From the NCBI RefSeq assembly GCF_014191775.1, contig NZ_JACHXA010000004.1:186001-250000 (forward strand): DNA of 64,000 nucleotides, written 5' to 3'. Every line of letters begins with the position of its first letter. Within the stretch, counting starts at the first letter, position 1. The notes under the pieces were generated by a model. The model did no database searches, was not told where the DNA came from, and saw only the letters and a list, made by a program, of their open reading frames with translations. Positions 61,248 through 62,208 of this stretch are shown here, piece after piece. The DNA is from Limibacillus halophilus (GTDB lineage: Bacteria; Pseudomonadota; Alphaproteobacteria; Kiloniellales; CECT-8803). A program made the translations under genes and the position numbers.

Positions 61248-61763
61248 ATGCAGCGGGAGGAGTTGATAGGTATCTACCCGGGAACGTTCGACCCTATCAC
61301 GCTCGGGCATCTTGATATTATCAAACGTGGAGCCCGGATGGTTGACCGTTTAATCGTCGGTGTCGCCGGTAACGAGGGAAAAGGGCCCTTGTTTGGGACC
61401 GATGATCGCTTGGAAATGGTGCGCCAAGAGCTCGAACAGATTGGCAATGGCAATGCAGTCCTTGAAGTTCGACGCTTCGATAATCTGCTGATGCATTTTT
61501 GTCAAAGTGTCGGAGCCAAGCTGATAATCCGCGGGCTGCGTGCCGTATCCGATTTCGAGTACGAGTTCCAGATGGCGGCGATGAACACACGCCTAGACCC
61601 GGGAATTGAAACCGTATTCTTAATGGCGTCGGAGCGGCAGCAGTTTATTTCATCCCGCTTCGTTAAGGAAATCGGCAGGCTGGGTGGCGATATCAGAAGT
61701 TTTGTCAGCCCGCTTGTTGCAGCACGCCTGGAAGAACGTTTTCGTGGCGATTCTGGGGATTAA
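61248..61763 (+). CDS. coaD: Phosphopantetheine adenylyltransferase
   Basis: A 171-residue enzyme for the penultimate step of coenzyme A synthesis. The nucleotidyltransferase motif IYPGTFDPITLGHLDIIKRGA opens it. GLRAVSDFEYEFQMAAMN and ERQQFISSRFVKEIGRLGGDI are further hallmarks. It lies three bases after gyrA, an order common in alphaproteobacteria, and ends 123 bases before the split tRNA-Lys. Confidence 0.96.
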   Translation: MQREELIGIYPGTFDPITLGHLDIIKRGARMVDRLIVGVAGNEGKGPLFGTDDRLEMVRQELEQIGNGNAVLEVRRFDNLLMHFCQSVGAKLIIRGLRAVSDFEYEFQMAAMNTRLDPGIETVFLMASERQQFISSRFVKEIGRLGGDIRSFVSPLVAARLEERFRGDSGD

Positions 61764-61886: not shown

Positions 61887-62170
61887 GGGCGCGTAGCTCA
61901 GTGGTAGAGCAGCTGACTTTTAGTATTGGGAGCCCGTCTTCGGAAACGTAGCGGTGAACAGGCGTCAAATTCGGGGAACCCGTCCGCATTCCAGCAACGG
62001 CAATCCCGAGCCAAGCCTCGCAAGAGGAAGGTGTAGAGACTAGACGGCGCCCACCTAAAGCTTCGGCCAAGGTGAAGGGATAGTCCAGACCACGAACCCG
62101 AGAGGGGCGGCGAAAGTCGAAGTGGTATGTAATCAGCGGGTCGAAGGTTCGAACCCTTCCGCGCTCACCA
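61887..62170 (+). tRNA. tRNA-Lys(UUU) interrupted by a group I intron (exons 61887-61920 and 62130-62170)
   Basis: Joining the two exons gives a standard 75-base tRNA. The acceptor stem is GGGCGCG / CGCGCTC (one G·T pair), with discriminator A and encoded CCA. The D arm is GCTC-AGTGGTA-GAGC. The anticodon arm is GCTGA-CTTTTAA-TCAGC, giving anticodon TTT, so lysine. The T arm is GAAGG-TTCGAAC-CCTTC. The first exon stops after CTTT in the anticodon loop, and the second resumes with TAATCAGC. The insert is a 209-base group I intron. Placing the junction between U35 and U36 keeps a U before the 5' cut and a G as the last intron base, as splicing needs. A one-base shift (junction after T61921) is the only alternative. 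Confidence 0.93.
61921..62129 (+). ncRNA. Group I self-splicing intron, subgroup IC3-like, within tRNA-Lys
   Basis: This 209-base insert carries the conserved core of an Azoarcus-type group I intron. P1 can form between the exon CTTT (61917-61920) and GGAG (61929-61932), with a U·G pair at the cut. P3 is GGCGTC (61961-61966) with GGCGCC (62046-62051). P4 is CGGGG (61972-61976) with TCCCG (62004-62008). P7 is GACTA (62038-62042) with TAGTC (62081-62085). P8 is CACCT (62052-62056) with AGGTG (62070-62074). P9 is ACCAC (62089-62093) with GTGGT (62122-62126). The last base, 62129, is the required terminal G. It has no open reading frame for a homing endonuclease, so it must splice by RNA alone or with host help. 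Confidence 0.92.
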
Positions 62171-62174
62171 TATT

Positions 62175-62208
62175 AAACCCCCGGCATCTTAAGGTGCCGG
62201 GGGTTTTT
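62175..62208 (+). terminator. Rho-independent terminator after tRNA-Lys
   Basis: A 12-base arm AAACCCCCGGCA and its complement TGCCGGGGGTTT flank an 8-base loop, followed by TTCT. It begins five bases after the tRNA CCA end. Confidence 0.93.

Follow-up and report, generated by a model that had tools for sequence, protein, structure and literature searches.

Introduction

The closest described relatives of the locus reported here are the subgroup IC3 group I introns of bacterial tRNA-Leu(UAA), tRNA-Arg(CCU) and tRNA-Ile(CAU) genes (the Anabaena, Agrobacterium and Azoarcus types). To these the tRNAscan-SE 2.0 paper adds Ile2 introns in Acidovorax and Burkholderia (PMC8450103), and a genome paper on Asaia describes a split tRNA-Arg in acetic acid bacteria (PMC4596401). 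As of 2014, every known phage intron lay in a protein-coding gene, according to PMC3984707. 'Group I introns' of 22-49 nt have been reported in cyanobacterial tRNA-Arg, -Gly and -Lys genes, the one in tRNA-Lys being 49 nt long (PMC5733544). Apart from that insert, no bacterial tRNA-Lys group I intron was found in the open-access literature searched, subscription papers lying outside the search. It is worth adding that a 2025 preprint, as cited in PMC12641178, reports that Patescibacteria tRNA genes have 'a novel insertion site'.

Here we describe a tRNA-Lys(UUU) gene of Limibacillus halophilus that is interrupted within its anticodon, and compare it with these systems. The window is the whole 64,000-nt stretch of DNA that was analysed, and all coordinates without a locus name refer to it.

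Results

A split tRNA-Lys(UUU) gene

The sequence and the Rfam model RF00028 together identify a tRNA-Lys(UUU) gene at 61887-62170 that is interrupted by a 209-nt group I intron. When joined, the exons give a complete 75-nt cloverleaf with the anticodon UUU and an encoded CCA, in which all seven acceptor pairs and all five anticodon-stem pairs form. RF00028 matches the insert end to end (model positions 1-253) with 57.3 bits, against a cut-off of 50, and an E value of 4e-13, and this is the one match to the model in the 3.48-Mb host genome. The initial annotation had read the gene as a tRNA-Lys(UUU) interrupted by a group I intron of subgroup IC3, with an RF00028 search as a check; the full-length match above cut-off and the cloverleaf confirm the interrupted tRNA-Lys(UUU), and the architecture described below supports the subgroup.

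Plain ARAGORN does not call a tRNA at 61887-62170. The hairpin following the gene is probably an intrinsic terminator of the tRNA transcript, although a consensus terminator scan gave no match there; a promoter scan detected none. Three weak Rfam matches below cut-off (His_leader, NsiR1 and Atu_C7), located on the terminator hairpin and the T arm, were rejected.

Table 1. Features of the split tRNA-Lys(UUU) locus, in window coordinates
Feature	Position	Strand	Basis
coaD (phosphopantetheine adenylyltransferase), upstream neighbour of tRNA-Lys, conserved in order-mates	61248..61763	+	Pfam PF01467; tblastn synteny
tRNA-Lys(UUU) 5' exon, running from the acceptor strand to U35 of the anticodon (GGGCGCG...GACTTT)	61887..61920	+	full pairing with 3' exon; uninterrupted orthologues in order-mates
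Group I intron, 209 nt, start UAGUAUUGGGAG, end GGUAUG (omega-G at 62129)	61921..62129	+	RF00028, covariation
Internal guide sequence	61925..61932	+	sequence reading
P10 strand AUUG (with 3' exon UAAU)	61925-61928	+	sequence reading
P1 strand GGAG (with 5' exon CUUU, U35.G)	61929-61932	+	sequence reading
P2 hairpin, GAAA tetraloop	61934..61954	+	compensatory change in 7/7 pairs
P3 5' strand, partner 62046-62051	61961..61966	+	compensatory change in 5/6 pairs
P4 (61972-61975 with 62005-62008) and P5 (61980-61983 with 61997-62000)	61972..62008	+	alignment
P6 (62010-62012 with 62030-62032), P6a (62016-62019 with 62024-62027), GCAA tetraloop	62010..62032	+	alignment
P7 5' strand GACUA, partner 62081-62085 (UAGUC), guanosine-binding helix	62038..62042	+	100% of cells paired; AU->UA and UA->CG swaps
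P3 3' strand	62046..62051	+	alignment
P8, UUCG apical loop	62052..62074	+	compensatory change in 4/5 pairs
P7 3' strand	62081..62085	+	alignment
P9.0 (62089-62093 with 62122-62126) around P9 and second hairpin	62089..62126	+	alignment
P9 (GAGA loop)	62097-62106	+	inside P9.0
Second hairpin (GAAA loop)	62108-62119	+	inside P9.0
tRNA-Lys(UUU) 3' exon, running from U36 of the anticodon to CCA	62130..62170	+	uninterrupted orthologues in order-mates
Probable intrinsic terminator of tRNA transcript, G+C-rich hairpin then TTTTT	62178..62208	+	sequence reading

The junction lies between anticodon bases 35 and 36

Because bases are repeated at both ends of the insert, the exons alone leave the junction ambiguous. 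Group I introns have a U.G pair at the 5' splice site and a G as their last base, and these rules leave a single reading, which places the insert between anticodon bases 35 and 36: exon GACUUU (last base U35), intron UAGUAUUGGGAG...GGUAUG, exon UAAUC (first base U36). It is with this placement alone that a U.G at the 5' site, an omega-G at the 3' site and a contiguous P1-P10 occur together, and an exon finder with the U and G rules imposed gave 35/36 as its sole solution for the window. P1 is then formed by the guide GGAG and the CUUU of the 5' exon, and P10 adjoins it without a gap, the AUUG immediately upstream of GGAG pairing with the UAAU of the 3' exon.

Fold and covariation of the intron

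All of the catalytic helices form in the window's intron. The helices were assigned by hand, using the window's sequence and what is known of group I introns in general, and their pairs were then scored in 17 aligned Lys introns. Because the window served to build the structure, its own pairing is no evidence, and it is the compensatory changes in the other introns that count. Over the 17 introns, 92.7% of cells are paired and compensatory changes occur in 29 of the 58 pairs, these totals counting related rows repeatedly (for example an eight-genome acetic acid clade). None of 500 shuffles matched any covariation measure, and sliding the partners by one base lowers the pairing to 41-46%. P3 is paired in 99% of cells and P7 in 100%; P1 is kept in all 17 introns (100% of cells), as is its U.G. 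The other Lys introns have a weak P10, kept only in part, and most of them lack one pair of P5 and the final pair of P8. The terminal G was demanded both by the genome-scan pattern and by the exon finder; in the window it is read directly. The folding energy of the pre-tRNA is about that of shuffles (z -0.5), a measure that says little for such RNAs.

The intron shows the features of subgroup IC3: its core is small and lacks P5abc and P2.1, P2 (GAAA) and the P9 region (GAGA and GAAA) have GNRA loops, and its host is a tRNA anticodon loop. Rfam covers group I introns of all subgroups with a single general model. There is no homing endonuclease gene in the intron, the 209 nt being nearly all core and hairpins and too short for an endonuclease beside the core.

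An old tRNA-Lys gene downstream of coaD

A genome of the same family, and many other order-mates, have coaD followed by an uninterrupted tRNA-Lys(UUU). These orthologues are identical at up to 69 of 75 tRNA positions. Judging by this gene order, the interrupted gene is the ancestral, old tRNA-Lys downstream of coaD. coaD also lies upstream of two other split genes, one in Rhodospirillales with an intron at 35/36 (L135) and one in the same class with an intron at 34/35 (L187), and the orthologous tRNA-Lys gene would therefore have been hit more than once, at two neighbouring sites. The survey of related genomes called for by the initial annotation gives uninterrupted genes at coaD in many order-mates, and the same insertion in more distant bacteria. 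Further combinations of host and site were seen, namely the tRNA-Lys(UUU) of L187 and a tRNA-Arg(UCU) (L222), both split at 34/35.

The sole tRNA-Lys(UUU) of the genome

The host genome has 46 Rfam tRNA matches, 45 of them over the cut-off, which were typed. They include one Lys(CUU) gene and no second tRNA-Lys(UUU). A pattern for uninterrupted Lys(UUU) had no match in the host genome, although across the order it matched 41 of 61 genomes. The codon AAA is in use, accounting for 35 of the 104 lysine codons that four window genes (gyrA, uvrA, coaD and ssb) contain. A CUU anticodon cannot read AAA, and since the genome has no other Lys(UUU), AAA decoding, and hence growth, should depend on splicing. 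The initial annotation had made this dependence conditional on a sole Lys(UUU); the sole copy is borne out, and the dependence is presumed. The assembly is in 18 contigs, and its gaps could hide a further tRNA-Lys(UUU), but at an estimated completeness of 100% this is unlikely.

Distribution of the 35/36 insertion

A pattern composed of the terminal intron G and the 3' exon was scanned against about 85,000 species genomes, giving 102 stretches, of which 80 were examined as loci. With a cognate 5' exon upstream, 35/36 insertions were found in at least 14 tRNA-Lys(UUU), at least 15 tRNA-Lys(CUU) and at least 26 tRNA-Asn(GUU) genes, so that at least 55 genes of named genomes share the junction. 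The counts are lower bounds, as the pattern was built for the 35/36 junction and misses introns with other ends (such as L183), and they rest on the pattern plus the cognate 5' exon, the fit to the core having been seen for the inserts in the 17-intron alignment. The host genome is the sole match among 61 genomes of its order, and 4 of 385 genomes spread over the class have the pattern. The hosts include Acetobacter, Gluconobacter, Gluconacetobacter, Brytella, Sphingomonas and Neomegalonema, and further Acidobacteriota, Clostridia, Methylovulum and many Patescibacteria, in which the insertion was found in tRNA-Asn(GUU).

In Sphingomonas cremea (L057), a second tRNA-Lys 3' half with an uninterrupted anticodon loop (GACTTTTAATC...) lies on the reverse strand near 1135, in the same 8-kb locus as the intron-bearing gene. 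It might resemble the attachment-site copy of an integrated element.

Viral and plasmid carriers

Insertions at 35/36 are also found on viral contigs, in tRNA-Lys and tRNA-Asn genes. Six viral tRNA-Lys(UUU) genes have inserts of 184-657 nt, and twelve viral tRNA-Asn(GUU) genes have inserts of 197-206 nt. Large phages carry many tRNA genes, and two of the contigs with a split tRNA-Lys(UUU) have 19 (L243) and 18 (L257) other tRNA genes. In the wider tree described below, the rows nearest to the window's include the Lys(CUU) introns of two viral contigs, L244 and L266. L244 has an integrase gene beside the tRNA, together with phage-type helicase genes, and because the integrase adjoins it this tRNA may be a host attachment site. 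On two viral contigs (L252, L253), tRNA-Asn-like genes are interrupted at 35/36 by just 45-50 nt, and these short inserts include a second T-arm-like stretch; both were set aside, as was L226, the junction of which is not settled.

Several split genes at other sites were noted on mobile elements. The cultured Gordonia phage Daredevil (L278, NC_048021.1) has an unannotated tRNA-Lys(UUU)-like gene at about 1880-2200, with a core-like 238-nt insert at 34/35 that does not reach RF00028 at E 0.01. An unannotated tRNA-Leu(UAA) split at 34/35 by a 213-nt group I intron is present in pCTX-M3 (NC_004464.2, L275:2886-3170) and at L279:2501-2785; the intron scores 36.8 bits, below the Rfam cut-off, and the gene adjoins the aac(3)-IId module on resistance plasmids. 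At least 80% of this split gene is present in 624 of 5426 complete E. coli genomes, mostly on plasmids and nearly always at 99% identity or more. On a Tritonibacter mobilis megaplasmid (L276, NZ_CP015231.1), a tRNA-Thr(UGU), a host outside the usual list, apparently carries a group I intron of 252 nt (34.1 bits) between positions 36 and 37.

Kinship of the intron

The introns nearest to the window's are those of Acidobacteriota tRNA-Lys(CUU) (81% over 201 columns) and Neomegalonema tRNA-Lys(UUU). In a tree of 67 introns, 28 Lys introns (18 UUU, 10 CUU) are split from 39 Leu and Arg introns with a support of 100/100, a result for the rows kept once those on long branches (Asn, Ile, Arg and some Lys(CUU)) had been dropped; all the trees rest on about 210 columns and a rough bootstrap. 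When Asn, Ile and viral introns are added in wider trees, resolution of the backbone is poor and the single Lys clade is lost. The Lys(UUU) introns alone as one clade are rejected (AU p 0.007), and the intron would therefore have moved between isoacceptors or between hosts. A clade of the window with Leu and Arg gives p 0.55, which says little, since the window lies near the branch concerned.

The initial annotation took the intron to be of the Azoarcus type. This is not upheld as its closest kinship: the nearest introns are those of other tRNA-Lys genes, and two tRNA-Ile(CAU) introns are about 70-73% identical to it. The three 'Azoarcus' motifs are present in the insert, and they mark tRNA introns generally or other Lys introns. 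Of the 84 introns collected, 57 contain AGCCAAGC, mainly those of tRNA-Leu, and only one of the three runs was found in the tRNA-Ile(CAU) introns, in one of the two.

Discussion

The gene parts, the conserved catalytic fold, the guide pairings, the sole Lys(UUU) and the uninterrupted orthologue beside coaD are, as far as sequence can tell, best explained by a functional, self-splicing intron of IC3 type between U35 and U36 of the genome's only tRNA-Lys(UUU), and we consider this very probable. As the pre-tRNA folds, the intron guide GGAG would pair with exon CUUU to form P1, with its U35.G, and free guanosine bound in P7 would attack after U35. The omega-G would then take the place of the guanosine in P7, the 3' exon would be aligned by P10 (AUUG with UAAU), and the freed 3'OH of U35 would join U36, so remaking the UUU anticodon. 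The intron appears to belong to a lineage at the 35/36 site of tRNA-Lys genes across phyla and of some viral tRNA genes.

Two other readings concern the product of the gene. With introns allowed, ARAGORN places the break in the anticodon loop one base further upstream, gives the intron U as its last base and names the gene tRNA-Thr(UGU), a product that would require splicing after U34 and before the insert's terminal G; the repeats at the junction do give a good cloverleaf from both the Thr(UGU) and the Lys(UUU) readings. A tRNA-Thr product is nevertheless extremely unlikely, as an intron ending in U rather than omega-G is barred by the group I mechanism, the intronless orthologues read CTTTTAATC, and the genome already has tRNA-Thr(UGU), (GGU) and (CGU), whereas another Lys(UUU) is absent. 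The Thr(UGU) identity is best regarded as a boundary artefact of ARAGORN. It could also be proposed that the insert is a decayed, non-splicing remnant in a dead tRNA gene, AAA being read by a gene missing from the assembly, given the 18 contigs and the fact that splicing is a prediction from sequence. We consider this very improbable: all catalytic helices are intact, the exons pair faultlessly, completeness is estimated at 100%, and AAA is in use in the four window genes.

The remaining readings concern the source of the intron. The order has tRNA-Leu(UAA) and tRNA-Arg(CCU) introns of its own (L047-L056), about 82-85% identical pairwise with gapped positions left out, from which the tRNA-Lys intron could have arisen by transposition (reverse splicing). 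Such an origin is very improbable, since the tree joins the 28 Lys introns against Leu and Arg, and the AU test rejects a grouping of the window's intron with Leu introns from its own order (p 0.003). The intron most likely reached this old tRNA gene by horizontal transfer, and the sporadic distribution over the class suggests transfer across phyla. As an addition to the self-splicing intron set out above, the intron may move with phages, viral tRNA-Lys and tRNA-Asn genes being the vehicles from which the host gene is converted by recombination. The 35/36 introns of viral contigs, two of which have many other tRNA genes, and the nearness of L244 and L266 to the window's intron speak for such a route. 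Against it, the tRNA of L244 may be its host's attachment site, the neighbours of the window's tRNA (coaD and a TadE-like gene) are not phage genes, and the intron has no endonuclease; phage carriage is thus possible but on balance doubtful.

If the self-splicing intron is accepted, the known range of bacterial group I introns gains tRNA-Lys, and also tRNA-Asn, as hosts, and a splice site between the second and third anticodon base, here in a single-copy and probably essential gene. Standard tRNA annotation misses such genes, ARAGORN giving no call or, with introns allowed, a tRNA-Thr, and the genomes therefore look as if they had no tRNA-Lys(UUU). The same introns in viral tRNA arrays make the movement of tRNA introns between distant bacteria testable. 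Rather tentatively, we suggest a set of group I introns specialised on the U35/U36-A37-A38 site of tRNAs with NUU anticodons (Lys, Asn), spreading across phyla partly on phage-borne tRNA genes and making AAA decoding depend on guanosine-driven splicing. If true, this dependence could couple the translation of AAA codons to the GTP pool.

Comparison with known systems

The cyanobacterial inserts of PMC5733544 resemble the present case in the claimed tRNA-Lys anticodon-loop host, but they are far too short for a group I core and are a different thing. The 2025 preprint concerns Patescibacteria, where the tRNA-Asn(GUU) insertion at 35/36 was found here, and may describe the same site, although its title is not on Alphaproteobacteria. 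The IC3 introns of tRNA-Leu(UAA), tRNA-Arg(CCU) and tRNA-Ile(CAU) are like the window's in size (about 200-250 nt), RF00028 core, P1/P10 guide, GNRA loops of P2 and P9, core motifs and anticodon-loop host. In the collected loci they lie at 34/35 (Leu) or 36/37 (Arg CCU, Ile), whereas the window's intron lies at 35/36 and groups in sequence with Lys introns. The 35/36 introns in tRNA-Lys(UUU) of Acetobacter, Gluconobacter, Gluconacetobacter, Brytella, Sphingomonas and Neomegalonema, and in tRNA-Lys(CUU) of Acidobacteriota, share both the site and the guide core GGAG, the nearest having about 82-88% pairwise identity to the window's with gapped positions left out; they differ in host clade and, in Acidobacteriota, in isoacceptor. 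The initial annotation had suggested a new host site. This holds against the open-access papers searched, but the site is not unique to this genome, being filled in Lys(UUU), Lys(CUU) and Asn(GUU) genes and on viral contigs. Measured against that literature, the host tRNA and the insertion site together make a real new variant within the known IC3 tRNA introns.
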